DNA of 64,000 bases from Sipunculus nudus (lineage: Eukaryota; Annelida; Sipuncula; Golfingiida; Sipunculidae). Below, piece after piece: positions 19,601-49,945 of this stretch. A model generated the notes under the pieces. It was given only the letters and a program-made list of their open reading frames with translations, searched no databases and was not told where the DNA came from. The position numbers and the translations under genes are program-made. The DNA is taken from positions 60,707,676 to 60,771,675 of the forward strand of contig CM049316.1 in NCBI GenBank assembly GCA_026874595.1, read 5' to 3'. Every line of letters begins with the position of its first letter. Position 1 is the stretch's first letter.

Positions 19601-20456
19601 TCAGCTGCGAGCACACATGCGAGGCCATGATGATTCTCAGACAATGAGCATTATCAAAGGAGCTCTTCCTGAAGCCCAGTCCTCCTCAGAGTCTAAAGCC
19701 AAACACGCATGTTCAGTTTGCAATCAGACATTCCCTACAAAGTCTCGTCTCAGCAGCCACTCATGTAAACCCAATAAAACTAGCACCTATTTTGTATGTC
19801 AAGTGTGTTCTTTCAAAGCCCAGACAGAGGCGGAGTTCATTGAACACGCTAAAGCTGAACATATGGCACAGGAAGAGAAGCCTGATTGTAATAGCTCTTC
19901 AGACACAGAAGGATCTGATAAAACCAAAGACAAAAGTAGTGCCAGTGTGAACTTGGTGTGTTCAATGTGTGGCTTCACAGCCATCTCGACTCGGAGCTTG
20001 AAATCTCATATGAAGCGTCATATAAATGACCAGAGGTTTGTGCAGCAACCCCTTGAACAGTACAAATGCAACTTGTGTGGATATTTGTGTCATCATTTAC
20101 CGTCACTGAAATCCCACATGTGGCGTCATGCGAGTGATGCCAACTATAGTTATGAAGTTACAAATGATGTCATAAATGCTGCCATGGATTATGGGGGCAG
20201 CGAATCTGGAAGCACCACTCAAGAACAAGAATCGGAGCCAATGACAAGAATACTGGACCAACAGACCGCAAGTGGTGACCTCCAGAGTTTTATCACTTTT
20301 AGGTGTTGTCAGTGTGGGTTTGAATCTGAGAACAAGAGTGTATTGAACGCACATATGACGCAGCATAATGATATTATCCAAAAAACCCTGGAAGTTAATA
20401 GGTCTAGAATACTCGGCAAGTCTGAAGGACAGAGATCTGGTGCACATATCTTATGA
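4195..20456 (+). CDS. ZNF507: ZNF507-like C2H2 zinc-finger protein (two coding exons)
   Basis: Probable nuclear transcriptional regulator related to vertebrate ZNF507. Exons 4195-4696 and 16720-20456 join in phase 1 inside finger 2 and give 1412 residues; human ZNF507 is about 950. About 17 C2H2 fingers form two clusters, residues about 130-450 (nine) and about 1057-1400 (eight, of which the HACSVCNQTF finger is degenerate), separated by about 600 low-complexity, Ser/Glu-rich residues. Family hallmarks: YRCTVCGY with HMWRH and then DYPMF near 430-460; SGISSTLLAVIEHLRER; the C-terminal array CKLCHYTS, CSLCEY, SFVYKSQLRAH; CGYLCHHLPSLKSHMWRHAS; and the last finger FRCCQCGFES. A basic run RPRRRSRRGS near residue 1025 is a likely nuclear signal. 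ATG 4195 is the first in-frame ATG after a stop at 4153-4155. DNA-binding preference is unknown. Orthology is strong; function is family inference. Confidence 0.92.
5118..5250. repeat. 63-bp direct repeat, about 2.3 copies
   Basis: TATCGATG(A/G)TTGGTCATTT begins at 5118 and 5181, with a weaker third copy near 5231. Intronic. Confidence 0.75.
5690..5841. repeat. 38-bp tandem repeat, 4 copies
   Basis: Four diverged units starting TATAACT(T/A)A and ending TTTTGCAGTT or a variant of it, spaced 38 bp. A stray related piece (AGATGTGTCATATTTTGCA) sits near 6335. Confidence 0.85.
7669..8651. mobile_element. Foldback-type DNA element with terminal inverted repeats
   Basis: The ends are 15-bp inverted repeats: ATGTATATGTCAAGG at 7669-7683 and its complement at 8637-8651. 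Inside each end are about 120-220 bp of short, mutually inverted modules built on GATC(N)GGAT and GGTCTGGACCAAT, so each arm folds on itself as well as on the other. The centre (7850-8400) is plain AT-rich DNA. There are no coding frames, so it must be non-autonomous. I cannot define a clean target-site duplication or name a superfamily. Confidence 0.8.
9495..9926. mobile_element. hAT-type MITE with perfect 8-bp target duplication
   Basis: The element starts TAGGGCTGAAA and ends with its exact complement TTTCAGCCCTA. Both flanks carry the same 8-mer GCAGCAGT (9487-9494 and 9927-9934), the signature of hAT transposition. Subterminal palindromes of the type CGAGTACTCGAG are repeated near both ends, a usual place for transposase binding. 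It is 432 bp and has no coding capacity. The perfect duplication suggests a fairly recent insertion. Confidence 0.93.
11409..13325 (+). mobile_element. GCTCAG...CCCTTG element, copy C, inserted in B
   Basis: A complete 1.9-kb copy. 5' hairpin TAGCTCAGCTGAC/GTCATCTGAGCTA, then an expanded (GTCC)n run (11453-11515), the body, a C-tract near 12320, and 3' end GACCCATAGGTCCCTTG. TTA flanks both ends (11406-11408, 13326-13328). It is the youngest of the three nested copies by position. Confidence 0.8.
13890..14430 (+). mobile_element. 5'-truncated internal block of the same family
   Basis: The text from GTAAATTTGGCATACAGTT to GACCATGGCACGTTTG repeats the order of the family body found at 11550-12030, but without the 5' hairpin. 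It lies within copy B, so B contains two body blocks in a row. Confidence 0.6.
15718..15776. repeat. (CT)n microsatellite
   Basis: Imperfect CT/TTCT dinucleotide tract about 60 bp long, next to the 3' end of copy B. It produces spurious Ser/Leu- and Arg/Glu-rich open frames on both strands. Confidence 0.9.
16720..20456 (+). CDS. ZNF507: ZNF507-like coding exon 2 (terminal)
   Basis: 3737 nt after the acceptor TGTTTCAG. The first residues KRSHSLKEHLVVH complete finger 2 exactly, which fixes the splice junction. Fifteen further fingers and the acidic/serine-rich linker follow, all in one open frame to TGA at 20454-20456. The exon is free of breaks. Confidence 0.95.
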
Positions 20457-28760: not shown

Positions 28761-29253
28761 TCAATTAATCAGACGTTCATTGACTACTGGTACTGGCGTC
28801 TCTTCATCAAGGATTTCTACTTCCGTTTCATCCCCGTCCTCAAACTGCTTATAATCATGGAAACCGGAACTAGCTCTGTCACGTGCTCCACCAGGGTGTT
28901 CTATCATTTCCAGCTCAAACTGCTCCCCTTTTCTTGGCTCAACTTTGTGATACACCGCCCTATTCTTTGACGTGGAATTATACTGCTCCGCCGGAAATAC
29001 GTCATCATCGAGAATATCCGGAAGTGAAACGGATGCTGACAAGAATCGACTTCCGTTCTCGTCTTCCTTGAACTCGTAGCCGTAGCTGACTCTCTTGGTA
29101 TTACCGCCATATCTTTCATTGAATGTCGTAGTCGTCATTGACGGCTCCGGCCATTCTAACACTGACACAGGACGACTTGTTAACCTGATAACACGTCGTG
29201 GCACCGCGCCGCCTCCTACAGAATTGTGACGTGGTCGTTGGTTTTTCTTCCTC
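28761..29253 (-). CDS. Mucin-like gene exon 5, cytoplasmic tail
   Basis: 493 nt after acceptor ATTCTTTTAG. It begins with the rest of the arginine codon, then RKKNQRPRH, and runs 163 more residues to TGA (28763-28761). It is hydrophilic with basic membrane-proximal and acidic distal halves. It ends ETPVPVVNERLIN, which is not an obvious PDZ ligand. Confidence 0.9.
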
Positions 29254-32200
29254 CTAAAAGAATACATTTTCATATTAGCAGAAATGCCAGGTCTTAAGGG
29301 GTGGATACACGGTCTAAGAAAGTAGGCAGGGGTTTACCCCCCCCCCCCCCCCTGCATGGTACAGGTGAAATGTGCGTGTGCGGGGAGATAAAGTAGACTA
29401 TAGGCCTACATGACTCTTTGATGCGGAAGTATTCTTAAGTTAACGATGATACGAAATCTCGGGCTTCTTTTCGGTATTAATCGTATATTATGCTAATTTC
29501 CCAGATTCTTTAGGTCGAAAAGGGGGTGGGTTGCGCTGCCCTCGAAATCCGCCCCTGATCTCATTGTTATCCCCTTAAGCGCTATTACATCTTGTTTTAC
29601 CCACAGGCACTCGATCGTTACCTATACTAGGCCTATATGTTTACATGGTTACGCCCCCTTATATCACCCATTGGTAACATGTAAATGACTATTTATAACG
29701 AGTGCCTGTGGTTTTACCGCTCTCGCAGTAATGAGGGGACATCAATACATGCATTCTATTGAATTTTTATTTTAACAAAGAGGATATCTGGCACTTTGTT
29801 TCTAAACCATGAAACAATATATATACGTCCGACTTATAAACAGTTTGGGCATTTTAGTCAATTTAGGATTGAAGCCTAAAGTAGCCTATGTTGTGCTCAA
29901 GTAATCAGCCACATTTCCCCATTACAATATTGTAGTAAATTAACATAATTTAAGTGTTTAAGTGCCGAGGAATGTCAATACAGTTTGGAACCTCGATCAT
30001 GCTCTCGGGTCCCACAAACTTGGCATATCTGTTTTGACCATTTTCAAACAAGACAACAACATAGTATGTAACGTGAGTGGTAATGCAGTCTTAAAAACGA
30101 ACCCCATAGACCCGAGCCTGCCTTTTACATGCTATGAAGATTCTTCAAGGCTAGATCGACCTGTTCTGCAGCCAACTTTGAAATGTTTACCACTCTGTCC
30201 ATTTAAAAATATATCAACCCTGTTTCCGGCACATTTCTGATATTTTCCTAGCTCCTAGGACAATTCACTTATTTATTCAACCCAGAAATACATATCATGC
30301 GTGATTGGTTGAAATACATTTATATCATGCGTGATTGGTTTTCGCGTTATTAACTTGTTTTCATTGGGAGCTCCAGATGACAGCACTGCGCTGAACATAG
30401 AATTTTAACATCATTAACTGGCCGTTTCACTGTTGCGCTTATAATAGCTCTAAATTTACAAAACAGGTGTCATAAAATAGCTAAAAAGATTCATTACTAG
30501 ATACCATAATGGGTAACTGCCCTGTTGCTTTATGCAATATTTACGAGAGTCTTGAAGTGCGGTATTGCATTCGACTCTGTCCTGTCAAACCCTCCACAAA
30601 ATCTCTAGGCACGCCGCTACGTCAGTGTAACCTTCAAAGTGAGTCGGGTATACGTATGACATTACAGATGTTGATGGTTTAACAGACATACCTGTAGCAA
30701 GCGACGACAATCACTACCAGCACTATCAACAAGAGGACCGGGATGACGACAGCTACAACGACGATCAGAGTCTACAAGTGGTTAAACATCATATATTAAT
30801 TATAAAATAATAATAATAATAATAACAACAATAATAATGATAATAATTATGAGACATGTAATAATAATAATGCTCATTACTAATGTATTCAATTTTTTTA
30901 CAAATTATATAAAAAAGTTATATTTTGATTTATTTTAATGCTACATATATATGTATTTGCTGTAAGTATGAAAATAAAATTTCACAAACACATACACATG
31001 TACACTTCACACATGCACACTGATCACACGGACTCGAGTTTGTCAACATTACATTACGTTTGTGTCACGCATTTTCCTTCTATGTACGCCATCAGTGTTC
31101 TTACCGGTTAAGCCACACATAGCCGACTCGTGCATTGTTCCTTTCTAAGACAACTATTCTTAAACTTTTGTAATTCAGTTGCGACATGCTGGTGACACTT
31201 GGCACAATGTGTAAATGTTAGTGGTCGGGGGGTGATATAAAATTCGCTTAATAATCGATATAACAATCTTATCGTTAATCAAACTGGTTTCCTTATTTTG
31301 AATGCCTTTCTACCCAAAATATACGATATCTAGTCACAAAAGCTTTAAATTTTACTTTTCAAATATTTCGTAGCCTCACGCTTCCACTAGTACGTCTCTT
31401 TTTCTATGACACCAGTGGAAGCGGTATACGCTACGAAATGATTGAAAAGTAATATTAACTCTCCATAGAGACAGTGGTTTCGGTTGTATATAGGCGATCA
31501 GAATGAGGAAAACCAGGATGACAAAGGAAAAAAATACGCTGAAAATGACGTTTGGGGGATGGGCCCCTAATTATATCGACCCCCCCCCCCCCCATCCCCC
31601 CCATTACACACACACACACACAACTGGCGACGAAACAAGAGGAATGTTGTAATTGCAAAAAAAAGAGGGAACTTCTTTGTTAGTACAGCAATACATTTTA
31701 TGTGATAGAACACCAGATTTAGTAAATTCATGCTTTATCCAATCTTCCTACCGTTTTCTGTCTTTGTGCGGCAGATGGCGCCGCAGTGCCGTCTCTATGA
31801 AGACAGTGGCTTCCGTTGTACACCAGCGTATTTTTCAATTGTAATTTCATCAAGTGTTCTTTCATTTTTGAGAAATGTGTCATATTCACATTCACATACA
31901 GCACCCGGGCCTTGGTTTTCTTTCTGAAATAATCACAGTGAAATCAATGAATCTCTATTTATAGGATTATTTCCCCCTGGCTTCATGCCCGTAACGCAAA
32001 AAAAAAAAATGATAGTTTGTTTTCACTTGCCTGCGTTAAAGCCCCTATAAGGTGGAGATTTTACCCCGTAAGGTTTGGTCAGATTTGACCAAAGAGGTTC
32101 ATATTAGCATATTCATCGTTCAACGTGATAACATGCAACATCCCCAAAATATAAATTACGTATAATATACTTGCGATGACACATAAATTGTAACTTAATA

Positions 32201-35200
32201 ATCAGTCAAAGACACCATGTAGCGGTATTCACAAAGAACGGTTGTCCCGCGAACAGCATTCATGTAAATTTCGGCATTGTTTCTTAAGAGAATATACTTT
32301 TAGCGCATGGTAAAACTTCCAAGCCTATGAATAAACTGCAGTAATGTTTATCTCTATGTGATAAATCTATCTTTCATTGCCACATCTTGAAATTATATTC
32401 CTGTTTAACTTCAAATGATACTCTTACCCATTCTGACTTATACATGAGTCTTGTGTACAGATGGTCGGGTTATCATTGTTATACTTCAACCACAAACGTT
32501 CCAGGATTGATTTTACTTCTGATTCATTCGCTCTCTTGTCTTCGAAACTTACCGTCAAGCCTAGAATCGACCCTGTATAATATATGGATATAGACACATA
32601 TTCCTTTATCAGCGTTTTACCTTAGAATTATAATAAAACTTTTCAATTATTTATCATGATAACTTGCGAAAAGTATCATTGGGAAATTTCTGTTTTTGTA
32701 TTGTGTATTGAACTGCCAACACGCAGAAATTTGACCCCTTTGATAAGCCATATTTGCTTCATAAAATGATAATTAGGGAAGTCCATTGGCAAGCAAATAC
32801 ATTTTTATTATCTACTACAGTAAATCAGTAAAATACTGATTTTCCCAACCTTATATCATATTTAAATTTTGTTACATATTTGCTTGGTATTAAAAAAAGA
32901 AGCAATGTGAACTTATTTGCAGGCAAATATTTATTATCAATATTTTGAATTCATGTTTGTAGACCTATTAGATTCTTTATAAATCAATTTATTATATATA
33001 TAGCAGTATATTAGTCGTCATCATAAAATGGCATACATAGTGCCATAGTACCCACAATGTTTTACCACAGAGAATTTGTTTATTTTAACCGTCTTGAAGG
33101 GGACATATTGCTTGAACTTGATATTACATGCATTATTGACTGATGTAAATATCATCATCGTCTGATGTTAATATATGCATCACTGAAATACCCCTGCAGG
33201 ATTTGCTAAAGGAAATCTCGACTTACCTGTTTGAGGTTTTACACAGACATCGCTAACATTCGAAGGTGAGTCAGTGGTTACAAGTAGTGTCCGAGGTGGC
33301 ACGGAAGACAAAACGGACGTGGTGCTAGATGTAACAATGGAAGTATAATCTTGCTTATCAGTTGACCTCTGGGATGTACCCTCGGTCGAAGGATTTGGTG
33401 CTGATGTTTTTTTCATTGTGACTGACATTTCCTCAAGTCCAGTTGTCCGTATTATTTCCGGCTTCTGGGTGGTCATGGAAGAACTGGTCGGCGTTTGACT
33501 TGAACCTCCTCTAGTACTTTTTGTAGAACGGTCAGGTGATACCGTTGTTGTTACGTCATGGGCATCAAGCCGCGTGGATACTTGTTTCGGAACACTTGAT
33601 GTTTCAGCTATACTTGTGGTACGCAAGGCGGCTGAATCTCCTGTTGGTACCGCCGTGGGTGTGCCATCTGTTGGTGGGATAGTCCGAGTCGGGCTCGTGT
33701 GTTTGTCGAATGTTTCAGATTGGCCAAACTCTGAAGAGGTGGAAGTTTTCATCCTCACAACTGATTTTGCACCTGTAGTTCTCAACGCACCTGTTGTTGC
33801 ATCTTTAATCTCACCTGTGTTGTCTGGGGGTGGTTGAGACGAACTGGGGAGGGCGTTAGAGGACCCTTCATGAGAACTGGTATCTCTGACTGTTGATTCT
33901 TTCTGCACCGTGTTATCGTCAACTTTTGTTTTGTCTGTTGTACCCGACATTACATGCACAGCACCAGAGGTTAATTTCACCTCCTTTACTAAATCACTGA
34001 ACTCACTTTGAAGTCCAAAGGTTGTTGAATCATCTGTGCTGTGCCATATCGTGGTTTCGGCAACCGTTTTCGATTCTTCCTTTCCTAAATATGAAGTTCG
34101 TTGTCTTTCAAATGATGTCAGTTCATCGGGGCTAGACCAAACGGTGTCTTCGTTGACCGTGGTGGGTTCTTTCTTTTCTACACTTTGGGTATTGTGATCC
34201 TCAAGGGTCGCTGTCAAGTCACCAGGATCTCGTGAGTGCGAATCTAAATGGATTGCTGTGATTTCCTCCTTGTTTAAGTCTGACCGGACATCCTCAGTGG
34301 AGAGTAGGTTATCGGGGCTATTCCAAGTCGCGTATTCATTGACTGTTGTGAATTTCCTCTTCTCTGAATCTGCAGTAGGGTTGTCTCCTAAGGATGTCAG
34401 GTCTCGGGGTCGACGCCCGGTCGAATCTCCGTTGACGGTGGTGGATGTTTCCTTTTCTAATTCAGATTGGTCATCTTTAAAGGATAGTAAGCCATCGGGG
34501 CTATCCCAAGTCGCGTATTCATCAACTGTTGTGAATTCCCCCTTTTCTAAATATGTGGCCTGGTGATCTTCTAAGGATGTTAGGTCACGTGGTCGACGCC
34601 CAGCAGAATCTCCGTTGACGGTTGTGGATTCTTTCTTATCGAATTCTGAGGTTTTGTGAACATCAGAGGATGTTAGATCACCTGGGCTGTGCCAAATCTC
34701 ATCTCCGATGATTGTTGTGTGATTCTCGTTCTGTAAATCTGAAGACTGGTGAACTTCAGAGGTTGTAACGTGATCGGACCGATCCCGTGCTGTGGAATTA
34801 TCTGATGCTTTTAATCTTTCCTTTTCTAAAGTCGAGGCTTTTTCTGTAAGGAATATTCCTGCTCGTGAAGTATTTGAAATTTTGATCGTATCGGTCGTGT
34901 TATTATACGTGGTGTCCGTTGTATTCTTAGCATGTGTCACCTACAATTAACGGTATACAGAATTATATGTAGTAAATCTTTCTTTTTCCTCTCTGTCTCT
35001 CTCTCTTTTAGATGAACAGCACAAGAATATTTCGAGGTCGATTACGTCATATGTGGAGATGAGGTATAGAGACCAAAGGGGAAGTGGCTATAAAATAAAT
35101 CAAAATTAAAGAAGAAATACCTGTTTTCGTGAATATGCTCAGCCTAAATCGCGCATATTTAGTGGTGTTATAGCAATAGTCAATGAAAACGATATGTACA

Positions 35201-37193
35201 AATAAAGTCAAATGACAAATCATAAGTTCAATATCATGCTGCAGAGTCACGAGTCCTTACCTGTCAAACAATGTTAAGATGTTGTAAAATTGTTGAAAAT
35301 ACAATTGAACGGATTTCCAGCAGATAGGACGATTAAAAATTGATTTTACTCTGAAGATATAGTGACAGTGACTGCCTGGGTATTATAACATTGCTAAATC
35401 TAGAAAAATGAATGCCATGGAAGACCTGTGGGGGACTTGGTGTTTATTTATTTATCATGGACGGAAGTGTATGGCCTGAGATTTATATTCAAATCTCCCT
35501 GTCATGCTAGGACAGCTCGCACGTATTACGTGATCGTCTGCATGCACATGTTTAAAACGTCAATGTTATAACCAATCTGTGCAAACTATTAACCAAACAT
35601 TACCAACCAAAACTTTCAATAAGAAACAGGTAAAAAAATCTTGATGCTCATTTAGTATATGAATTTTTTTAATTAAAATAAATATACAACGTTCGACTTC
35701 CTTATAAAGTTCTATTTAATTATGTGTCTGATGATTTTACCGATTTGTCCTAATGCAAATAATAAAACAAAAGGATGGGTAATTGGTGGGAAAGGAAAAC
35801 AAAAACCACAGAACTGCATGAAAATAATACAACCGGAAGCATTTTATCTAAACGAATACATGAATGTGAAAAGCTAACGTTATACGTGCAGGCAGATACA
35901 ATGCATGTTTATGTACCGGGGTTTTTGTGCACCTTTTGACACGGGATGTGCGTAAATGATGTAATTATTGTTGCCCGTGGTCTTTTTTAAAAGTCTCTTT
36001 TGAAATATGTTTTATTTTACGTCTATATACATCGCTAGTATAGGGATGTAACAATGCATCGAAGAATAAGTTAGATTTATTTCGATTATTATTTTGTTGC
36101 ATGTACCATCCCGAAGTCCTCTGTCAGCTCTCAAATTTGGTGGAGAACTTCACGATGTCGAAGCTCTTTATCTTGTATGAACTGTGAATCTACAAACATC
36201 CATTTCGGTAAAATTACTTTATTTTTATAAAGAATGAAATTTACTACTTACGTAAGAATTGAATCGAGAATTGAATCGAAGGTAAAGAATTGATAATTGA
36301 ATCGATTCTAATGTCCCTCACAGTTCACGGGCGTGTCAGCTAGGGCCGCATTTGCATGTAGATGGGCACCTATGGAATGCAGACGAGGTCAGTGCTATCC
36401 TTTATGTCAGGACCTTAACAAAATATGAAATCCTTTTTTTATGATTAATTTAACTAGGACAGAACTCAATGAGAGTATATTATAGAGTTGCAAGAGAAAT
36501 ATCTCCTATTTAAAGTTGGTTGTCACTTAGTTCAGAAGTGGTCAAAGTTGAAGGTTAATATATTTTGGCCTAAATGTTTCATGTAGTGAATTGTATATTT
36601 AAGTTTTTTTTATTAACAAATATAGAACAGCCAAAGGGTTTTAGTGTCTATGCAGAATGGCAGCCACCCTAAGCGGTTTAGAGAAACTGGGAGAACTTAT
36701 CTTGTCAAGGTTCGATTAAGGGCGCGGGGATGACTCGAAAGTACTTCTATAGGAGAGCATCCACGCAAGAATCGATCTGCAGAGAGAGTTTTGTGGCAAA
36801 GGGGCGAGTATCTGCTAAATTAAAAGCGGATTAACGCCTTATTGGACAACGCCCAAATACTCAAATGACACTAGGATATGAGATTACTTTTAAGCATTAT
36901 TGAACAAAAGGCCAACATCAAAATACCATGAAAATACCATGTAACCTTTTTCAGAAATCAGTTTGTAAAATGACTTCAAACTAATAGGCGGCATGATTTG
37001 TTCTAGATGACCATTCTTAACATTCCCCTACAGAGAGAAAAATATGGGCCTGTATTTTTCAGCATAACAAATTCTTATGTCATTATCGCAGCAATCATAT
37101 AGTTATTCATGAAGTTATGTAAATATTGTGTGAATAACACGTGGACTGTAAAAGGGGAAATTATCTATAATTTGGACATTATTATAAGACAAT

Positions 37194-37281
<88 letters not shown>

Positions 37282-38209
37282 AAGGACACTGAGTTAAGCA
37301 TAATCATGAGAAACAATCATGAAGGAGAAACAAACACATGTATTATTAACAAGCATTTTAGCCAAATAGCTTTATATTAAAACTAATCTGTATAATTTGT
37401 TATTGACATTTTGGTTATGTGGGATAATTTGTATCCTACAGACGTGACAATAGTCTTATCACGACAAGCCGTTATTCGTCATGATTTATCAGTTTATATA
37501 TTCAAAATAATGGTTATGTGCAGGTTGTGTACATTTATAAAACCGTTATCAAAATCAGCATCTGTCACCCAGATCAATTGTATACAGACTTAAACAGAAG
37601 TGAACTCTGTAGTGTCATTTTACGTATTGTGTTCAAGGTAACGGTATTGTAGGTGTCCTCTAACAGATTAAATAAGAAAACTCGCCGATCAGGTATAAAA
37701 TCTTCAAAATGGCCGAAGAGTCTGTCCGATTTTTGAATAAATGTTATTATTAGTCCGCAAATTACCATACTGCTAGTCCGTGGGTAAGTGCTCAGCTCAC
37801 CTCCTTATTACAACGGGACCCTAGCTACTAACTAAACGACTTGTCAAATATTTGATAAATATTATTAGATATTAGATAAATAAATGTTGGGTAAATTATA
37901 TGTCAGGTGTAATCTGAAGACACATTTGAGTCCATTGAAAAACAGTGAACAAGAACCAGTGTCAGTTTAGTTGCGTGTGAAGAAACTATCATGTATAATT
38001 GCATTAAAAATCTGACAAATGTCTGGTTGCTTAAATTATTAATATACACGGTATGAAGAAAATATTGACACAGATAATCTCTGCAAGAACAATGTGCTTC
38101 AGAAAGTGGTTTATCAGGGGAACCAATATCAATTGGGCTGAATAATGATAACATATTACTTAATAGTAGGGGAGACTCCATACCAAGTGTTTACAGCAGA
38201 ATTTGATAA

Positions 38210-38265
<56 letters not shown>

Positions 38266-39210
38266 CCCCCATGCACATATACACAACACTGCATGCACAG
38301 AAGTCTACATTATTTTCACCTGATACAGTGTTCTTTCTGATATACATATTTCTTTTTTAATTTTCATATGATATATTGGTACATTTTATTTTTTTTTAAT
38401 TTTAAAATACATGTAGTACGCTTGTTAAGCACACAGTAACAGCCAGTCACTTTTTAGTGGGCTAATATTTAAGTACATGACATTATTTCATAATTTTTTT
38501 TATCATTATTATTTCTCTGGCTAAATTAAAACTGAAATTTTATATGTTGACTCAATTTAAATTTCATTTTCTATCAAGACAGACACACGATAGAGTAATA
38601 ACAACTTTTGAGATATTGTCATGAGGTTTAATATTAGTTCGTTAAAATGTGTCTTGATGTAAATTTGTTTAAATAAGTGTACTGTTTAAAATGAAAAAAA
38701 AATAATGTTTAAATATCATATATCGAAATGAATGAAATCAAGAAAACATGTTTAGCATCAGAATGAAATCTGCACCAGATTTAAAATAATGTATACCTTA
38801 TGAGTCTAATATGAATTTAAAAAAAAAAAGTTTGTTTTCATTTTGAATTAGGATGCTAACACAGCAGTCAAGTTCAGTAGGGCATGCTTAATAAATAATA
38901 TTTATAATTTGTTTGCGATCTCTGTACATGTTGTGTATATGCATGCGTGTTCATATATATATATTTTTTATTTTCAAATTTTGATTCAATAAAAAAATTA
39001 TTTTTAGACATGAAATAAACATGATACAGGAAAAAACGGTTTTGACATGAATTGTCATGTATAGTTAATTATTTGCCAATTAATACAGGAAAAATTAGCC
39101 TATTAAAAAGTGGTTTGCGGTTACTGGTTTCTTGAAATTGTGTACTATTTAAACATTAAATTTTCAAAAAAATGATAAAATTTCATATGAAAATGAATGT
39201 GAATTTTGTA

Positions 39211-39284
<74 letters not shown>

Positions 39285-42200
39285 TACTATTAGAAAGAGT
39301 TCTGTACCTGGTTTAAATGATATGTACTTTTGCCAGGGATGCTGCCTTATGGTGACTCGGTGGCTATATATATGTTATCCGCATGGCTCATCAGGATATA
39401 GATAAAAGGATTCATGGTTTGTATGGTCGAGGACATCCACTATATATATTATAAGTCCGTGTTGATAATGCGTCACCCTGTTATTAATCAATGTATGACA
39501 GTTTTATCAAGGCCGACTCCCTGACAGAGATGAATATAATGTGTCCAGGTTGATGTTGGTTCCCTGACAGAGATGAATATAATGTGTCCAGGTTGATGTT
39601 GGTTCCCTGACAAAGATGAATATAATGTTTCCAGGTTGATGTTTGTTCCGTGGTAGAGATAGATATAATGTCTCCAGGTTGATGTTGGTTCCCTGACAGA
39701 GATGAATATAATGTTTCCAGGTTGATGTTTGTTCCCTGGTAGAGATAGATATAATGTCTCCAGGTTGATGTTGGTTCCCTGACAGAGATAAATATAATGT
39801 GTCCAGGTTGATGTAGGTTCCCTGACAGAGGTGAATATAATGTGTCCAGGTTGATGTAGGTTCCCTGACAGAGGTGAATATAATGTATCCAGGTTTATGT
39901 TGGTTCCCTGGTACAGATAAATATAATGTCTCCAGGCTGATGTTGGTTCCCTGACAGAGATGAATATAATGTGTCCTGGTTGATGTTGGTTCCCTGGTAC
40001 AGATAAATATAATGTCTCCAGGCTGATGTTGGTTCCCTGACAGAGATAAATATAATGTGTCCAGGTTGATGTTGGTTCCCTGACAGAGGTAAATATACTG
40101 TCTCCTGGTTGATGTTGGTTCCCTGACAGAGGTGAATATAATGTGTCCAGGTTGATGTTGGTTCCCTGACAGAGGTGAATATAATGTGTCCAGGTTGATG
40201 TTGGTTCCCTGACAGAGATAAATAAAATGTGTCCAGGTTGATGTTGGTTCCCTGACAGAGGTGAATATAATGTCTCCAGGTTGATGTTGGTTCCCTGACA
40301 GAGGAAAATATAATGTTTCCAGGTTTATGTTGGTTCCCTGGTACAAATAAATATAATGTCTCCAGGCTGATGTTTGTTCCCTGACAGAGATGAATATAAT
40401 GTGTCCTGGTTGATGTTGGTTCCCTGGTACAGATAAATATAATGTCTCCAGGCTGATGTTGGTTCCCTGACAGAGATAAATATAATGTGTCCAGGTTGAT
40501 GTTGGTTCCCTGACAGAGGTAAATATACTGTCTCCTGGTTGATGTTGGTTCCCTGACAGAGATAGATATAATGTCTCCAGGTTGATGTTGGTTCCCTGAC
40601 AGAGATGAATATAATGTTTCCAGGTTGATGTTTGTTCCCTGGTAGAGATAGATATAATGTCTCCAGGTTGATGTTGGTTCCCTGACAGAGGTGAATATAA
40701 TGTGTCCAGGTTGATGTAGGTTCCCTGACAGAGGTGAATATAATGTATCCAGGTTTATGTTGGTTCCCTGGTACAAATAAATATAATGTCTCCAGGCTGA
40801 TGTTTGTTCCCTGACAGAGATGAATATAATGTGTCCTGGTTGATGTTGGTTCCCTGGTACAGATAAATATAATGTCTCCAGGCTGATGTTGGTTCCCTGA
40901 CAGAGATAAATATAATGTGTCCAGGTTGATGTTGGTTCCCTGACAGAGGTAAATATACTGTCTCCTGGTTGATGTTGGTTCCCTGACAGAGGTGAATATA
41001 ATGTGTCCAGGTTGATGTTGGTTCCCTGACAGAGGTGAATATAATGTGTCCAGGTTGATGTTGGTTCCCTGACAGAGGTGAATATAATGTCTCCAGGTTG
41101 ATGTTGGTTCCCTGACAGAGGTGAATATAATGTCTCCAGGCTGATGTTGGTTCCCTGACAGAGATGAATATAATGTGTCCAGGTTGATGTTGGTTCCCTG
41201 GTAGAGATAAATATAATGTCTCCAGGCTAATGTTGGTTCCCTGGTAGAGATAAATATAAAGTCTCCAGGCTGATTTTGGTTCCCTGACAGGGGTGAATAT
41301 AATGTGTCCAGGTTGATGTTGGTTCCCTGGTACAGATAAATATAATGTCTCCAGGCTGATGTTGGTTCCCTGACAGAGGTGAATATAATGTGTCCAGGTT
41401 GATGTTGGTTCCCTGAGAGAGATATATATATAATGTGTCCAGGTTGATGTTTGTTCCCTGGTACAGATAAATAAAATGTTTCCAGGTTGATGTTGGTTCC
41501 CTGACAGAGGTGAATATAATGTGTCCAGGTTGATGTTGGTTCCCTGGTAGAGATAAATATAATGTCTCCAGGCTGATGTTGGTTCCCTGACAGAGGTGAA
41601 TATAATGTGTCCAGGTTTATGTTGGTTCCCTGACAGAGATAAATATAATGTCTCCAGGTTGATGTTTGTTCCCTGACAGAGGTGAATATAATGTGTCCAG
41701 GTTGATGTTGGTTACCTGGTAGAGATAAATATAATGTCTCCAGGCTGATGTTGGTTCCCTGACAGAGATGAATATAATGTGTCCAGGTTGATGTTGGTTC
41801 CCTGGTAGAGATAAATATAATGTCTCCAGGCTGATGTTGGTTCCCTGACAGAAATGAATATAATGTGTCCAGGTTGATGTTGGTTCCCTGGTAGAGATAA
41901 ATATAATGTCTCCAGGCTGATGTTGGTTCCCTGACAGAGATAAATATAATGTGTCCAGGTTGATGTTGGTTCCCTGACAGAGGTGAATATAATGTCTCCA
42001 GGTTGATGTTGGTTCCCTGACAGAGATAAATATAATGTGTCCAGGTTGATGTTGGTTCCCTGACAGAGAGAAATATAATGTGTCCAGGTTGATGTTGGTT
42101 CCCTGACAGAGGTGAATATAATGTGTCCAGGTTGATGTTGGTTCCCTGACAGAGGTGAATATAATGTGTCCAGGTTGATGTTGGTCCCCTGACAGAGATA

Positions 42201-45200
42201 AATATAATGTGTCCAGGTTGATGTTTGTTCCCTGATACAGATAAATATAATGTCTCCAGGCTGATGTTGGTTCCCTGACAGAGGTGAATATAATGTGTCC
42301 AGGTTGATGTTTGTTCCCTGATACAGATAAATATAATGTCTCCAGGTTGATTTTGGTTCCCTGACAGAGATAAATATAATGTGTCACCAGTTGATGTTGG
42401 TTCACTGGTAAAGATCTATAAATGTCACCAGGTGAATGTTCGTTTCTTGGTAAAGTTAATATAATGTCACCAGGTTGATGTCTGTTCCCCGGTAAAGTTA
42501 TATATAAATGACACTTGATTGATGTTTGTTCAATACCAAGAATAAATATATTGTCACCAGGTTTATGTTTGCTACATACTTAAGATAAATCTAAATGCTA
42601 CCAGGTTAAGAGAAAAATATAAATGTCACCAGGTTGATGTTTGTTACATGGTAGAGAGAAAAATAATGTCTCCAGATATGATGTTTGTTACCTGGTAAAG
42701 ATATATATAAAAGTCACCAGGTTGATGTTTGTTCCCTGGTAAAGAGAAAAATAATGTCTCCAGGTTTATGTTTGTTCCCTGGTAAAGATAAATATAATAT
42801 CACGAGGTTTATGTTTGTACCCTGGCAGACATATATATAAACATCACCAGGTTGATATTTGTTCCCTTGTTAAAATAAGAGAAATATTCCAGGTTGATGT
42901 TCGTTCCCTGGTACATATAATATTCCAGGTAGATGTTGTTGACCCAGGTAAATAAAGTTGAAATGTTCCAGGTTGATGTTTTTCTCCTTTGTTAAAATAA
43001 GAGAAATATTCCAGGTTGATGTTTGTCCCCTTGTTAAAATAAGAGAAATATTCCAGGTTGATGTTTTTTCCCTTGTAAAAATAAGAGAAATATTCCAGGT
43101 TTATGTTTGTTCCCCGGTACATATAATATTCTAGGTAGATGTTGTTGACCCTGGTAAATAAAGTTGAAATGTTCCAGGTCTATATTGTTCTCTGGTAATT
43201 AAAAAAGGATTTTATACAACCAGGTAGCTGTTTGTTCCTTGAAATTAAAAAAAATCGAAATGTTCCAGGTTTATAATTTACCCTGGTAAATGCAAAATAT
43301 TTTACACAAACAGGTTTATGTTTGTTTCCTGGTAAATACAAGCTGAAATATTCCAGGTTGATGTTTGTTCCCTGGTAAACATTAACCATTTTACACAAAC
43401 ACGATTATGTTTGTTCCCTGGTAAATACAAGCTGAAATATTCCTGGTTGATGTTTGGCCCCTGGTAAACATTAACCATTTTACACAAACAGGATTATGTT
43501 TGTTCCCTGGTAAATACAAGCTGAAATATTCCTGGTTGATGTTTGTTCCCTGGTAAACATTAACCATTTTACACAAACAGGATTATGTTTGTTCCCTGGT
43601 AAATACAAGCTGATATAATCCAGGTTGATGTTTGTTCCCTGGTAAATAAAGTTGAAATATGCCAGGTTTATGTTTGTTTTCTGGAAAATACAAATTGAAA
43701 TATTCCAGGTGATGTCTGCTCCCTGGTAAATACACAATATTTTACACAACTAGGTTGATGTTTGTTCCCTCGTAAATATAAAACTTGCAGGCTGTACAAT
43801 ATGTATAATATACATCAGATATGAATAGTTATATAAGCTATATAGGCTGAGCCTTTGTATGATGTTTAAAGCGTCTGCATATTTATACAATTGTTGCAAT
43901 AGGTAATAGGAATTTGCCTTTTATTCATTGGACTCATTCATTTTTTGCATTTATTGATATTTGAGTGTTTTCCCCTTTTGATTTGCATTTCTGCTGGTGG
44001 TTTAATATTTTTTTCAGATGCCCCTGAGGAAGTGCAAAGCCCCTTGTCACCTTGTGGAAGAGGACTTTTCTGTTTCATGCAAGCGAGGTTGTAAGGTCTG
44101 CCTATATTAATAATGCAGATACACTACCAACATCCTCCACAATCGTCGGACATGGACAATTTCAAGCTCTAGTTTCTACCATGTCAGAGAAAGTCGGCCC
44201 TGACATCTTTCAAAATATCCATATCAAGACTTGGTCCCCAAAAATCACCAAATAACTTCTGTTGGATGCACAACATGTCTTACCCAGAGTTCAACTCAAT
44301 TAATGCAGGTATTCTGGTGATGCCTCGTCAAAATCATATTGTTCCACTCAAGATTCCATTGACTATCTAAAGCATTTAGGGCTAAACTGTAGTTTGCCAA
44401 AATTGATATAGGAGCTGCATTCCCCCTTATACCCATCTGCCCTAAATTAAAAAAAAAAACTTTTTTTGGCAGGATCAGTTTTATTATGATTAATGATAAC
44501 CTATGAACTGCGAATCATCATAGAGCATCTTTGAAAACATTCAGCACAGCTTTAAAATTTGTTACTTTCAAATCATGCCTGATGGGTGCTATAGTTTATG
44601 TTCTGAATGATTTTCTTTTTATAAAAGATAGCCCTGCCAAAACTGTGATGAGGCTGTTCTGGCTGCACTCTGACTTCTTAAGCAACAGCAATTGTCTTTC
44701 CCCACTGACTTTTCAACAAGCCTGATCCAACGGCCAGTGAGATCATCTGCAGGCTCTTTGCTGGTGCTCGCAGATTTACTTCTTCAGTTGATTTGCGTTT
44801 CCCTATCACTTATTCTGTCTTTTACCAATTGCTATCTGCCCTGAGACACACTGTTCAGTCCATTTACCTGAGGAGTCTGTTCTCTGCATTAAACCTCACT
44901 TGTTTTCATGGATGCTTCTGAGTTGATGAGCTTATTCCTTCCAGTAGGCATGTAATACACAATGCCATTCAGGTGTCTGATATATCTTTCTCTTGTGACA
45001 AAAATTCAACAGCTCGTATCACACTTCGTCATAGTAAAAATATGCCGTTTGGTCGCTGTCATGTCATTGTACTTCAGTCCAAAGCTGCAGGTCCTAGCCC
45101 TGTTGCTTCTCTTCATAAATTCTGCCAAGCATGAGGAAGCCTTCCTGGGCCCCTTTTAGGATCTCCCCCTGGATGCCCCATATCCCACGCTCAATTTAGC

Positions 45201-48200
45201 CCGTGATTTTCATTATTGTAACCTTGACACCCAGAAATTTAAAGGCCATAGCTTTTGGATCGGAGCTGCCACAGAGACAGCTGCTCAAGGCAACACAGAT
45301 GCCCAAATACGCAATCTTGGAAATCAAATGCATTTATAAAATATATCAGATTAAACATGGCTCATTGAATCCATGTGTAAAAGTCATGTTTTCTTAGCAG
45401 TTTTATCTGTACCCTTATAGCCGTGTACCTACAGTTATGTACCCCTCCTTGTCTTTATATGTATTTATATTTTGCAGGGATGGTGTCTCAAGTGAGCCTA
45501 TTTCATGACCATGTAGTTGTTATATCTTCAGGAATAGTGTCTCAAGTGAGCCTATTCCATGACCATGTAGTTGTTATAGCTTCAGGAATAGTGTCTAAAG
45601 TGAGCCTATTTCATGACCATGTAGTTGTTATAGCTTCAGGAATAGTGTCTAAAGTGAGCCTATTTCATGACCATGTAGTTGTTATAGCTTCAGGAATAGT
45701 GTCTAAAGTGAGCCTATTTCATGACCATGTAGTTGCTATAGCTTCAGGAATAGTGTCTAAAGGGAGCCTATTTCATGACCATGTAGTTGTTATAGCTTCA
45801 GGAATAGTGTCTAAAGTGAGCCTATTTCATGAACATGTAGTTGTTATAGCTTCAGGAATAGTGTCTAAAGTGAGCCTATTTCATGACCATGTAGTTGCTA
45901 TAGCTTCAGGAATAGTGTCTAAAGTGAGCCTATTTCATGACCATGTAGTTGTTATAGCTTCAGGAATAATGTCTAAAGTGAGCCTATTACATGACCATGT
46001 AGTTGTGATAGCTTCAGGAATAGTGTCTAAAGTGAGCCTATTTCATGACCATGTAGTTGTGATAGCTTCAGGAATAGTGTCTAAAGTGACCCCATTTCAT
46101 GACCATGTAGTTGTTATAGCTTCAGGAATAGTGTCTAAGGTGAGCCTATTTCATGACCATGTAGTTGCTATAGCTTCAGGAATAGTGTCTAAAGTGAGTC
46201 TATTTCATGACCATGTAGTTGTTATAGCTTCAGGAATAGTGTCTAAAGTGAGCCTATTTCATGACCATGTAGTTGTTATAGCTTCAGGAATAGTGTCTAA
46301 AGTGAGCCTATTTCATGACCATGTAGTTGTTATAGCTTCAGGAACAGTGTCTAAAGTGAGCCTATTTCATGACCATGTAGTTGTTATAGCTTCAGGAATA
46401 GTGTCTAAAGTGAGACTTTTTCATGACCATGTAGTTGTTATAGCTTCAGGAATAGTGTCTAAAGTGAGCCTATTTCATGACCATGTAGTTGTTTATCTTC
46501 AGGAATAGTGTCTAAAGTGAGCCTATTTCATGACCATGTAGTTGTTATAGCTTCAGGAATAGTGTCTAAAGTGAGCCTATTTCATGACCATGTAGTTGTT
46601 ATAGCTTCAGGAATAGTGTCCAAAGTGAGCCTATTTCATGACCATGTAGTTGTTATAGCTTCAGGAATAGTGTCTTAAGTGAACCTATTTCATGACCATG
46701 TAGTTGTTATAGCTTCAGGAATAGTGTCTAAAGTGAGCCTTTTTCATGACCATGTAGTTGGTATAGCTTCAGGAATAGTGTCTAAAGTGAACCTATTTCA
46801 TGACCATGTAGTTGTTATAGCTTCAGGAATAGTGTCTAAAGTGAGCCTATTTCATGACCATGCAGTTGTTATAGTCTCAGAAATAGTGTCTAAAGTGAGC
46901 CTATTTCATGACCATGTAGTTGCTATAGCTCCAGGAATAGTGTCTAAATTGAACCTATTCTATGATCATTATGTAATTTGTTTTAAAACACTTTCAGGGA
47001 TAGTGTCTCAAGTATGCCTTTTTCCATGTTCATTATGTAATACGTTATAACTTTCAGGGATAGTGTCTAAAGTGAGCCTATTCCATGACCATCATATAAT
47101 TTTTATAACTTTCAGGAAAAGTGTCTCAAGTGAGCCTTTTCCATGATCATTATGTAATTTGTTTTAAAATTAATTCAGGGATAGTGTCTCAAATGAGCCT
47201 ATTACATGTTAATTATGTAATCTGTTATAACTTTCAGCAATAATGTCTCAAGCGAGCCTACTCCATGACCATCATATAATTGTTATTACTTTTAGGAATA
47301 GTGTCTCAAGTGAGCCTTTTCCATGACCATTATGTAATAATTTATAACTTTCAGGGATTGTGTCTCAAGTGAGCATATTCCATAACCATCATGTAATTGC
47401 GGTAACATTCAGGGATGATGTCTCAAGTGAGCCTATTCCTGTGCTACTATTATTTTCTTTATACGCATGGGTAGTGTCTTATATCAGCCTACTGCATATT
47501 CATTCTGCTGTCTTTTCACTTACAATATGCATATGTAAGTCAAAGCCTGGCTTAATTATGTTTTATGTTCAAACTATCATATTTTCAGCTGTCAATCTAT
47601 TATATTCTCCTCCTCTAAAGGGGATTAATTGTTCACTTATGTGTGACCAGTATAAAGCTCTCTTAATTGTACCTGATTCAGGCGTGGATCCAAGGGGGGG
47701 GGGGAGGGTTTTGCTCTCAACAAACAACTTTTTTTTAGACAAATCTTATCCAGACAGGTAGTTTTGGGGGTTAAGCCCTCCCCCCCCCCCCGCTCTATAA
47801 CCAACGACCCTTTCTTTTAGACAATTTTTATTCATGACACCCATTGTCCCCTCCCTGGAAAAAATCCTAGATCCGCGCCTGTGGTTTATTAACTATTCTC
47901 TTAGTTTATGATGTCTAATACCTCATTTTAATTGTCTGTAGAAGGCTGATTGTATTTGTAGAGCTGGTGTCTCATGTGAGCCCATTCCTTGATAGTTCAT
48001 ATTTTTGTACTGAGAAGTTTGCATATGTTTAGGCTGTAGACCATTTGACGTTCCAGCTTTGTATATTACTGATATAGCTTTCCTTTTAATACCCTTACCT
48101 CTACCCTGTGATGCAAGCAGCAGTTTCTTTGTATGGTGGGGGACACTTTGCGTCCGGTGGCGGTTTTGACCCCACCATACCTGGGTTTTGTTACTTATGT

Positions 48201-48449
48201 GATATTATTTTGTCATTTTGGGGTGCGGGATAATTAATAAAATTGTTGGCCCATGTGGGGTCCATAATCAATCAACTGATGTCTCATGTTTTAATGTGTG
48301 CCTGCATGGGCCTGAATATGGTTCTTAAATATATTATGTAAGAGAGGAAAATTCCCGCTATAATGTTGTTATTTAACCACAGTTTTATACAAAGACGTAC
48401 TGTGATACCAAATCACTTCAAGTGACGGAGATTTCTGGTGTAAGGAAAT

Positions 48450-48494
<45 letters not shown>

Positions 48495-48580
48495 AATATA
48501 TATATAAAGAGACAGAGAGAGAAAAGGAAAGAGAGAGAGAGAACTGAAAGAGACTTATAAAGAAGTATAAAAACAAATAC

Positions 48581-48621
<41 letters not shown>

Positions 48622-48722
48622 TATATATAAACAATAAACAAAGTAATATAAACAACAAATACCTGCAAACAGAACATCAAGAGTACCGCCAGAAATGGGC
48701 GATAAATAATTACATCCATCAT
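28761..48722 (-). CDS. Mucin-like type I membrane protein (five exons, 788 aa)
   Basis: Predicted cell-surface glycoprotein of unknown family. The coding exons are 48722-48663, 34940-33227, 32572-32553, 30771-30692 and 29253-28761 (60+1714+20+80+493 nt). All introns are GT-AG and all junction phases agree, giving 788 residues and a TGA stop. In order: signal peptide (residues 1-20, core FLAVLLMFCL, then VTHA before a Thr-rich start); Thr/Ser/Glu-rich ectodomain to about 590 with nine 30-32-residue repeats (about 64-341) and many N-x-T/S sites; one membrane helix (about 600-624, IVVVAVVIPVLLLIVLVV) followed by the stop-transfer CYRRKK; and a 164-residue cytoplasmic tail with YHKV and YGYEF tyrosines and an acidic C-terminus. 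Only one ectodomain cysteine (SDVC) lies near the membrane. There is no recognisable adhesion or enzyme domain. The role is inferred from architecture only. Confidence 0.8.
29254..30691 (-). other. Intron 4 of the mucin-like gene
   Basis: 1438-bp GT-AG intron. Contains a 17-bp C-tract near 29337 and a hAT-like end (ATCCGCCCCTG near 29550) with no partner found. No exon seen. Confidence 0.85.
30692..30771 (-). CDS. Mucin-like gene exon 4, transmembrane helix
   Basis: 80 nt between acceptor CACTTGTAG and donor GTATGT. It encodes TLIVVV then AVVIPVLLLIVL then VVIVVACY, an unbroken hydrophobic run of about 24 residues, and ends with AG of an arginine codon (phase 2). Confidence 0.88.
30772..32552 (-). 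other. Intron 3 of the mucin-like gene
   Basis: 1781-bp GT-AG intron with an (ATA)n tract (30803-30850), a small hairpin (31348-31456), a C-tract near 31580 and an (AC)n run. No further exon fits the reading frame. Confidence 0.8.
31348..31456. repeat. Inverted repeat with about 43-bp arms
   Basis: The left arm 31348-31390 and the complement of 31411-31456 share TTACTTTTCAA, ATTTCGTAGC and CGCTTCCACT. The loop is about 20 nt. Probably a small foldback or MITE remnant within intron 3. Confidence 0.85.
32553..32572 (-). CDS. Mucin-like gene exon 3, 20-nt microexon
   Basis: Flanked by acceptor TATTATACAG and donor GTAAGTTT. Its 20 nt complete the split glycine codon and add SILGLT, leading straight into the membrane helix. 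Without it, exon 2 (phase 1) cannot join the transmembrane exon (phase 0) in frame. Its existence is inferred from splice sites and phase, not from a transcript. Confidence 0.72.
32573..33226 (-). other. Intron 2 of the mucin-like gene
   Basis: 654-bp AT-rich GT-AG intron between the ectodomain exon and the microexon. Nothing else seen. Confidence 0.75.
33227..34940 (-). CDS. Mucin-like gene exon 2, Thr/Ser-rich ectodomain
   Basis: 1714 nt open throughout, bounded by the acceptor TTAATTGTAG and donor GTAAGT. Codes 571 residues plus one base. Nine tandem units (nt 34811-33978) share a pattern of TTVN(E/G), a tryptophan or arginine block, SPDxL(T/L)S and LEKxE. Units 2-3 and 4-5 are a duplicated 61-residue pair spaced exactly 183 nt. 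The last 240 residues are Ser/Thr/Pro-rich without clear repeats, ending SDVCVKPQT. Confidence 0.9.
37197..37279. repeat. (CT)n(TA)n compound microsatellite
   Basis: A pure CT tract (37197-37228) runs directly into a pure TA tract (37229-37279). Confidence 0.97.
38213..38262. repeat. (TA)n microsatellite
   Basis: About 25 uninterrupted TA units. Confidence 0.97.
39214..39282. repeat. (TA)n microsatellite
   Basis: About 34 uninterrupted TA units, just upstream of the 43-bp minisatellite. Confidence 0.97.
39513..42405. repeat. 43-bp minisatellite, about 67 copies, with 430-bp higher order
   Basis: The unit contains TTCCCTGACAGAG, AATATAATGT and CCAGGTTGATGTTGG. Spacing is 43 bp (for example 39560 and 39603). 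A marked variant (AGGTTTATGTTGGTTCCCTG) recurs at 39891, 40321 and 40751, exactly 430 bp (10 units) apart, and again at 41613 after two more such steps. Since 43 is 3n+1 and the minus strand lacks stops, long minus-strand frames of 262-293 codons arise by chance, cycling through all frames with a 43-residue period; I do not call them genes. Confidence 0.96.
42406..43777. repeat. Diverged flank of the 43-bp minisatellite, partly 89-bp period
   Basis: Units keep the core CAGGTTGATGTTTGTTCCCT but vary in length and spacer. From about 43302 to 43610 they alternate as a two-unit repeat of exactly 89 bp (CAAGCTGAAATATTC type and ACATTAACCATTTTACACA type). The divergence suggests an older, less homogenised edge of the array. 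Confidence 0.9.
43990..45400 (+). pseudogene. Fossil tyrosine-recombinase-like element (DIRS/Crypton type?)
   Basis: A broken, old coding remnant on the plus strand. Its 3' part still shows the tyrosine-recombinase style HSFWIGAAT...AAQG motif with an upstream region like the catalytic core of recombinases carried by DIRS-type elements and Cryptons. Several breaks are present; ends and terminal repeats could not be defined. Family assignment is tentative. Confidence 0.5.
45474..46960. repeat. 54-bp minisatellite, about 27 copies
   Basis: The unit contains GTGTCTAAAGTGAGCCTATT, TCATGACCATGTAGTTGTTA and TAGCTTCAGGAATA. Because 54 is a multiple of three, plus-strand frames stay open (361 codons, 18-residue period GIVSKVSLFHDHVVVIAS). 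Differences between copies change amino acids freely, and the frame is lost near 46495 and by a stop near 46675, so this looks non-coding. Confidence 0.96.
46961..47440. repeat. Degenerate copies of the 54-bp minisatellite
   Basis: About eight units of roughly 60 bp keeping GTGTCTCAAGTGAGCCT and CAT(C/T)AT(A/G)TAAT but diverged and lengthened. An isolated echo (GGTGTCTCATGTGAGCCCATTCC) lies near 47965. This is an old edge beside a homogenised core. Confidence 0.85.
47679..47881. mobile_element. Small MITE with CAGGCG(T/C)GGATC ends
   Basis: The left end CAGGCGTGGATC and the complement of the right end GATCCGCGCCTG match over 12 bp with one mismatch. Long G- and C-tracts follow each end. The 203-bp length and CAGG start suggest a hAT-type MITE; no matching 8-bp flank is seen, so the class is uncertain. 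Confidence 0.65.
48452..48629. repeat. Two (TA)n tracts around a GAGA-rich spacer
   Basis: TA tracts at 48452-48490 and 48584-48629 with an (AG)n-rich piece between. The second tract ends only about 30 bp from the exon 1 donor of the mucin-like gene. Confidence 0.95.
48663..48722 (-). CDS. Mucin-like gene exon 1, signal peptide
   Basis: Twenty codons from ATGATG to CAG, then the donor GTATTTG. It reads MMDVIIYRPF then LAVLLMFCLQ, a classic hydrophobic signal core, and ends in phase 0, the phase the next exon needs. The join places VTHA just after the core, a plausible signal-peptidase site before KNTTDTT. The second ATG at 48719 is an alternative start. Its distance (13.7 kb) from exon 2 makes this the least certain exon. 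Confidence 0.7.
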
Positions 48723-49945
48723 ATTCCCTCGCGGCGGGCAGGCAGGCTCATCAGTAGCTTAATTCTCTCTTGTGCACTTCTACAATCAAGCAGCTTCTCA
48801 ACTGTTCCTCCGGAAGCATTCGAGGGGTCAACAGATGCAGACTCTCACGCCTTTGCGACGAGTTAAAAATTTCAGGAAATCGAGTGGATTATCCATATAT
48901 TTTAGCAGGAATAACGTAATGACAGTGATCAGAAATCTGGGCCCGATCCTAAGAGATGAATGAAGGGTGGGCCGGCGGCACTATGTAACCCCCCCGAAGT
49001 GGCCAACGCTACCACGCATATCCGCATTTCTCGTATGGCCGATGTGTTTGGTCGTTATACATACAGCTATCAAAATTCTCTATAAACACTTAATGACTAA
49101 TTAAGTACAGCGTGGATGCTCACGTTTCCCGACTGTTGAAGAGGGAAGTTTTGTTAATCACCGCATGAAACTGAAAGATTTTTTTTATATACAGATCAAT
49201 ATGTTAGATAAAGCAGAGATTAACCGATTACAACTCATATAATTATCTGATTCACTTATTTTAAAATATGAGTACAATAAAATTCATGTAACCCTATACG
49301 CTTTATGATCCCCCACGAGAGGTGTATATATAAACGTATTACTCATGACATACATCCGGCCTGAAAACGCAACCGATACACACAGATCATATTGTGTCCC
49401 GTCACAGTGCTTATTAACAGCATCCTTAATCTAATAAATCATCTCTCGTGATTAGAGGGTAGGATCAGAATCCTTCCTGGTCCTCCGCGCTCACGGACAC
49501 TCACTGACTGGGAGTCCTCAGTACAAGTGTACGTAGTTACACATGTACATGTACATAGCTTAATAAGTGTGTTCCTGTAACAAGTACCCGCCTAGCTTGT
49601 GTGGTTGTGGGACTAACTATGCGGTGATCGAAGGGTGCATATTGTTACCTACGACCTTTGCCATGTTAGGAGGCCATGTTTTCACTCATGTTGGCTTGTT
49701 ATTTTATGGTTTTTTTTTATGTTATTGAAATAACGCAAGAATATATATCTCTGTTCAGTGCGGATCTTGATATTTTTTTTCTTGCGCGGAAGTATGCGCT
49801 CTGCTGAATGCCATCTTGTTGTTTTTCAGTTCTTGCTGTTGGTTACTGGTGCGGTCGTTCTCTGAGTGCACCGATTTCACCTCACGTACACACATCCTCA
49901 AACTTGTATACTCACACGTAGGCATAAACGCAAATGCGTGCACAC
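48723..49945. promoter_or_regulatory. Upstream region of the mucin-like gene
   Basis: Immediately 5' of the signal exon the sequence turns GC-richer (CGCGGCGGGCAGGCAGGC at about 48731-48748), as expected of a 5' UTR or proximal promoter; the rest is AT-rich without recognised motifs. No TATA box can be assigned with confidence. Confidence 0.4.

Follow-up and report, generated by a model that had tools for sequence, protein, structure and literature searches.

We propose a model of a five-exon gene of Sipunculus nudus that encodes an orphan type I membrane protein of mucin-like character. The gene lies on the minus strand of a 64,000-nt stretch, CM049316.1 (C11):60707676-60771675, of an assembly of 1.43 Gb in 153 contigs; this whole stretch is called the window in the following. 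The data presented below support well that this is a genuine and fairly ordinary gene, and we consider it probable that the model, taken as a whole, describes a single-copy, protein-coding gene of the animal, the product being a mucin-like membrane glycoprotein of type I. Since orphan surface proteins of such a sort are common in invertebrate genomes, the surprise offered by the gene is modest.

The five-exon model

In the model, the minus-strand exons lie at 48722-48663, 34940-33227, 32572-32553, 30771-30692 and 29253-28761, with lengths of 60, 1714, 20, 80 and 493 nt, summing up to 2367 nt, i.e., 788 codons plus the stop codon TGA. The initial annotation had put forward five exons with GT-AG sites, phases 0, 1, 0 and 2 and a product of 788 residues, and splicing reproduces this exactly: the spliced translation is an uninterrupted frame with these phases, and the borders of all four introns are canonical. 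Two AATAAA polyadenylation signals are present 133 and 416 nt past the stop.

Exon 1 (48663..48722) encodes in 20 codons the n- and h-region of a signal peptide, with ATGs at 48722 and 48719, and ends at the donor CAG/GTATTT in phase 0. Exon 2 (33227..34940; 571 codons) contains the c-region of the signal peptide, VTHA/KN, with presumptive cleavage at the slash, together with the entire Ser/Thr-rich ectodomain, ending at the donor CAG/GTAAGT in phase 1; within it, the repeat block at 33978..34718 comprises eight degenerate units of 30-32 residues each (protein residues 95-341). Exon 3 (32553..32572) is a microexon of 20 nt, entered in phase 1 and left in phase 0, with GSILGLT spanning its joins. 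Exon 4 (30692..30771) encodes the membrane helix TLIVVVAVVIPVLLLIVLVVIVVACY and has an alternative acceptor at 30752 that gives a 61-nt form, and exon 5 (28761..29253) encodes the RRKK stop-transfer signal and a tail of 163 residues, ending with the stop TGA.

Exon 1 and the region upstream

It is noted that exon 1, with a moderate donor and a 13.7-kb intron behind it, is likely, but is the least secure part of the model. With splice matrices of generic metazoan frequencies that were not trained on the S. nudus genome, its donor scores 5.67, placing it in the top 5.5% of the 3179 GTs. Among the signal-peptide-like ATG..GT candidates of phase 0 in the 69 kb upstream, which use 50 distinct donors, that of exon 1 is nevertheless the best, the thresholds of the scans for exon candidates being set after the model had been seen; one other listed candidate is marginally more hydrophobic (3.22 vs 3.16) but has a poor donor. 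The control strand examined (166 kb) contains 8 donors at least as strong as that of exon 1, some of them stronger, which corresponds to 0.66 per 13.7 kb, and a donor as strong combined with a stretch as hydrophobic occurs nowhere in these 166 kb. In Markov resamples of 34971-48800 (n = 200), as strong a donor arises 0.265 times per resample, and one that is also accompanied by as hydrophobic a stretch 0.01 times.

From the side of exon 2, its opening residues VTHAKNTT are predicted to close the signal peptide and to include its cleavage site, and because exon 2 starts with the c-region VTHA, a hydrophobic exon must precede it. This speaks against a larger gene, in which the true start would lie further upstream, with extra exons encoding folded domains, and the part described here would be the stalk, helix and tail only. 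The length of intron 1, the moderate strength of the exon 1 donor and the room left upstream are consistent with such a larger gene: the next clear gene in the 40 kb examined, a 346-codon plus-strand frame that we take to be OSGIN-like, lies on the other strand and is not reached before L005:8613-9653. By contrast, the frames that reach 100 aa or more on the minus strand upstream, within the window, are satellite frames, one 109-aa simple-repeat frame and a group of four at 59904-63010; two of these four match reverse transcriptase, a third is without Pfam match and the fourth is outside the scan. We thus regard the larger gene as unlikely.

Intron 1 (34941..48662) is made up partly of 43-bp and 54-bp satellite arrays, as found by a tandem-repeat scan. 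The 43-bp array occupies 39518-43782 and, because 43 = 3n+1, opens long false frames, those on the minus strand reaching 696 codons; the 54-bp array, with 34.7 copies at 45475-47389, contains a plus-strand frame of 375 codons composed of the 18-residue repeat GIVSKVSLFHDHVVVIAS. Further upstream, at 59904-62192 (minus strand), there are overlapping separate frames of LINE-like character, two of the three matching reverse transcriptase.

The microexon, the membrane exon and their splicing

The 20-nt microexon claimed initially holds up: in a scan for AG..GT exons with length under 300 and an acceptor score of at least -3, it scores highest of the 526 any-phase exons between exons 2 and 4, and it is also the first among the 21 open, phase-compatible ones in the same intron. 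Exon 4 is the sole exon coding for a transmembrane (TM) stretch with the required end phase in 29300-33190, having one donor and two acceptors, and with the thresholds used for it no equivalent is found in 187.8 kb of control strand.

The consequences of exon omission can be derived from the model. Dropping exon 3 or dropping exon 4 results in an identical frameshift, which removes the tail, leaves the helix misread or absent and creates a new end ...NDDYDIQ, with the stop in exon 5, while dropping both exons together gives a still shorter end, ...DHVTIL. Nonsense-mediated decay is not expected for a stop in the last exon, and hence not for the skipped messages, the stop of which sits there. 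It could thus be argued that the gene serves to make both tethered and secreted forms, the omission of exon 3 or exon 4 shifting the frame and removing helix and tail, with either single skip giving the same end and the protein terminating within the last exon. However, two of three random exon lengths shift the frame anyway, and we give this account only a small chance.

The alternative acceptor of exon 4 allows a different arrangement. When acceptor 30752 is used, exon 2 joins the helix directly and remains in frame through the tail, giving 775 residues, i.e., 13 codons (39 nt) fewer than the five-exon form, and the acceptors 30752 and 30771 are near-equal, with sums of 10.23 and 10.28 together with the shared donor. 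Based on these two features, the main transcript might be one that skips the microexon and uses 30752, having a 61-nt TM exon, 775 residues and a shorter helix. If this were so, both the top score of the microexon among the 526 candidates and its phase fit to 30771 would be a coincidence, and such a main form is quite unlikely.

The repeats and selection

The self-identity of exon 2 has z values of 13.4 at lag 61 and 9.2 at lag 31. From an alignment of the eight degenerate units, the consensus was drawn by eye as near TTVNxDxxWxSPxDLTSxEDxxTSxLEKEE. Among the 45 pairs of units computed, which are non-independent, pS exceeds pN in 23 of the 25 with pN < 0.45, the exceptions being U0-U5 and U1-U2. 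For the closest double-unit pair, pS/pN in the claimed frame is 2.03, as compared with a neutral mean of 1.33, and pS is likewise larger than pN in the +1 frame; the observed ratio is reached in 126 of 2000 neutral simulations, so that neutrality is not rejected at 5% for this pair, and a stop is gained in 1502 of the 2000. Selection among the repeat units is therefore suggestive only. That the gene is decaying or unexpressed, with frames that are open yet out of use, would be consistent with the non-significant test on the repeat pair, but is very improbable in view of the 788 codons having neither stop nor frameshift and of the canonical borders at all four introns.

Splice-site and coding-score controls

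With the generic matrix, exon 2 has a donor in the top 0.03% of the 3179 GTs of the strand, exon 3 one in the top 0.44% and exon 4 one in the top 0.6%. Against the model, exons 4 and 5 have weak acceptors, with scores of 0.25 and 0.12 that are equalled by 14-15% of the AGs in the window. The 571 open codons of exon 2 compare with 176 for the longest noncoding frame, as found on the two strands of 61 kb of noncoding DNA. With a codon score for which only two coding stretches, a zinc-finger exon and the OSGIN-like exon, served as training set, exons 2 and 5 each outscore all of 3000 noncoding windows, with the claimed frame the best of six; as the noncoding windows are penalised for stops, part of this margin reflects openness as such. 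The codon score needs longer exons than 1 and 4, and their claimed frames are not the top-scoring ones. Although the exons were initially chosen by eye and the neighbouring satellite DNA does open long spurious frames, a chance assembly of open frames is extremely improbable given the splice-site ranks, the coding scores and the controls for exon 1, the microexon and the TM exon.

Anatomy of the predicted protein

The signal peptide, Ser/Thr-rich ectodomain and membrane helix proposed at the outset are recovered by prediction: 19-residue Kyte-Doolittle windows with a mean of at least 1.6 begin at residues 1-4, for the signal peptide, and at 589-610, for the membrane helix, and nowhere else, with 31.7% Ser+Thr over residues 25-592 between them. 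The protein is accordingly predicted to have the features of a type I single-pass protein, namely a signal peptide, one helix and RRKK after the helix. Over the whole 788 residues the content is 26.1% Ser+Thr and 5.2% Pro.

The ectodomain is composed of three blocks. The first (residues 21-94) is without proline and has N-glycosylation sequons at 26, 33, 34, 43, 68 and 93; the second (residues 95-341), i.e., the repeats, has a net charge of -29, 26% S+T and 3.6% P; and the third (residues 342-591), with 37% S+T, 7.6% P and a net charge of 0, is mucin-like. Nine N-x-S/T sequons exist in total: besides the six above, within residues 26-93, there is one at 581, and the tail contains two, which would go unused. 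One cysteine (586) is present immediately outside the membrane helix.

The 163-residue tail starts with RRKK and ends with NERLIN, and its change from basic to acidic, likewise claimed at the outset, is evident in the net charges, which amount to +9 for residues 620-660 and to -10 for residues 740-788. A pattern search of the tail gives one NxxY after Phe (FNERY) and two YxxPhi (YHKV and YKQF), and no match to the patterns for ITIM, half-ITAM, PPxY, dileucine or PxxP. Such short motifs could arise by chance and are taken as leads only.

Searches for relatives

For exons 2 and 5, Pfam gives no family at E up to 1 and NCBIfam no family above cut-off, the 160 nt of exons 1, 3 and 4 being outside the scan, and no PDB sequence matches exon 2 at E up to 1. 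The weak matches that were returned are attributed to chance: STEVOR in NCBIfam on exon 2 (13.7 bits vs a cut-off of 166.65) and, among PDB sequences on exon 5, Macrodomain Ter protein (E 0.12) and Crov539 (E 7.8). Thus, as far as exons 2 and 5 and the Pfam, NCBIfam and PDB sequences are concerned, the absence of a named family, as annotated initially, is borne out. In the 1.43-Gb genome, the search with the tail (exon 5) returns only itself, and exon 2 is also single copy; a 30%-identical stretch considered as its paralogue (E 0.505) contains two stops and was rejected. Rfam has no match at gathering score in the 64-kb window, and no description of this protein was found in the open-licence literature searched by general terms.

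Comparison with known mucins and related proteins

To our knowledge, the catalogue of mucin-like proteins tethered to the membrane is poor outside vertebrates, since homology searches founder on repeats and disorder, and gene finders on small exons. The vertebrate sialomucins without SEA, i.e., CD43, podocalyxin, endomucin and CD164, are single-pass proteins having a disordered glycosylated ectodomain and a signalling or trafficking tail. The present protein has the same single-pass layout, while a link by sequence was not found, and we know of no 31-residue acidic repeat or basic-to-acidic 163-residue tail in these four proteins. With the syndecans it shares a disordered ectodomain, one helix and a cytoplasmic tail; by contrast, the C-terminus of syndecans is EFYA, while the present tail terminates with NERLIN, which sets the protein apart from them.

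With MUC1, MUC13, MUC16 and HEG1 of vertebrates, the protein has in common a signal peptide, a large Ser/Thr-rich exon, a membrane helix and a tail; by contrast, exons 2 and 5 have no SEA, VWD or EGF match in Pfam, the repeats are lower in proline and a relation of the tail by sequence was not found. In vertebrate transmembrane mucins the PTS domain is usually in a single large exon (PMC1552070). A mucin is strictly defined by a PTS domain beside a SEA or VWD domain (PMC1552070). When this definition is applied, a PTS domain is present, with 58 of the 471 100-residue windows reaching S+T 40% and P 5%, cut-offs of our own choice rather than output of the program of the PMC1552070 authors, and the best window, from residue 484, has 45% S+T and 8% P; neither SEA nor VWD is found in exons 2 and 5 by Pfam at E up to 1. 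Hence, of the term mucin in the initial annotation, the type I architecture and the mucin-like ectodomain stand, while the strict definition, with SEA or VWD, does not apply to what is found in exons 2 and 5.

The rules used for Drosophila ask for S+T >25% and four repeats of ten residues, with the name mucin for proteins in which PTS repeats make up more than one third (PMC2515642). The present protein has 26.1% S+T over its 788 residues and eight degenerate units of 30-32 residues, as given by our own alignment rather than by the program of PMC2515642, and its repeat block amounts to 31.3% of the protein with 3.6% proline, below the one third; under these rules, it would be classed as mucin-related (Mur) and not as Muc (PMC2515642). 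In the compared mucin repertoire, six of the mucins and three of the mucin-related proteins are without conserved domains; the present protein has a helix and a long tail. In summary, no named family is shown to include the protein, and in its working it would resemble a tethered mucin or sialomucin.

Surrounding DNA and bacterial contigs

On the plus strand of the window, a large frame with C2H2 zinc fingers, 1252 codons in length, is present at 16698-20456 and a smaller zinc-finger frame upstream of it at 4156-4722; perhaps the two belong to a single gene. Elsewhere, the plus-strand open frame of 593 codons at L005:4225-6006 is presumably a non-LTR reverse transcriptase. A COX1 search of the assembly gave bacterial genes and a single nuclear fragment of mitochondrial COX1, rather than a mitochondrial genome. 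In this fragment, ATA is read as Met and AAA as Lys at positions which we take to be conserved; this argues against the code of echinoderms and hemichordates and would suit a mollusc as well as many other animals, so that no particular phylum is indicated by it.

Nine contigs of this animal assembly (C60, C61, C62, C66, C72, C74, C75, C89 and C123) are bacterial, from which it follows that the sample carried bacteria. Nine bacterial COX1 matches with near-equal scores are distributed over eight contigs, the copy in L008 having 577 codons within an oxidase operon, and the oxidase in C123 is presumably of cbb3 type. For one bacterial COX1, the best 80 of 582 GTDB relatives are all 52-58% identical. 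The bacterial contigs possibly come from an associated bacterium that is undescribed and present as several strains.

Proposed mechanism and role

Based on our model, the predicted signal peptide would direct the protein into the secretory path, where the ectodomain may become an extended glycosylated rod composed of a patch of N-glycans, the eight acidic repeats of 31 residues and a Ser/Thr/Pro stalk, the last with putative O-glycans on its Ser/Thr as suggested by composition. The membrane-adjacent cysteine 586 could pair two chains, and the single helix would anchor the protein, with RRKK halting transfer. In the tail, FNERY (PTB-type), the two YxxPhi motifs (endocytic-type) and the acidic end make an adaptor link for uptake or signalling the most likely function. 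Overall, we infer a negatively charged glycocalyx molecule or an anti-adhesive or receptor molecule of a surface-exposed cell, and epithelium or immune cells may be the place where it acts.

Finally, we consider a further-reaching proposal, that the gene encodes a single-copy, lineage-born surface receptor in which the 20-nt microexon is a frame gate for anchored versus secreted forms. We hold it to be doubtful. If it were true, inclusion of the microexon, or its skipping together with the use of 30752, would give two tethered receptors differing by 13 codons at the membrane, while skipping of the microexon alone would yield an acidic mucin that is secreted and has a new end, the message being stable against nonsense-mediated decay. 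The gene gives a testable exon structure, in which the microexon would decide whether the membrane anchor is kept.
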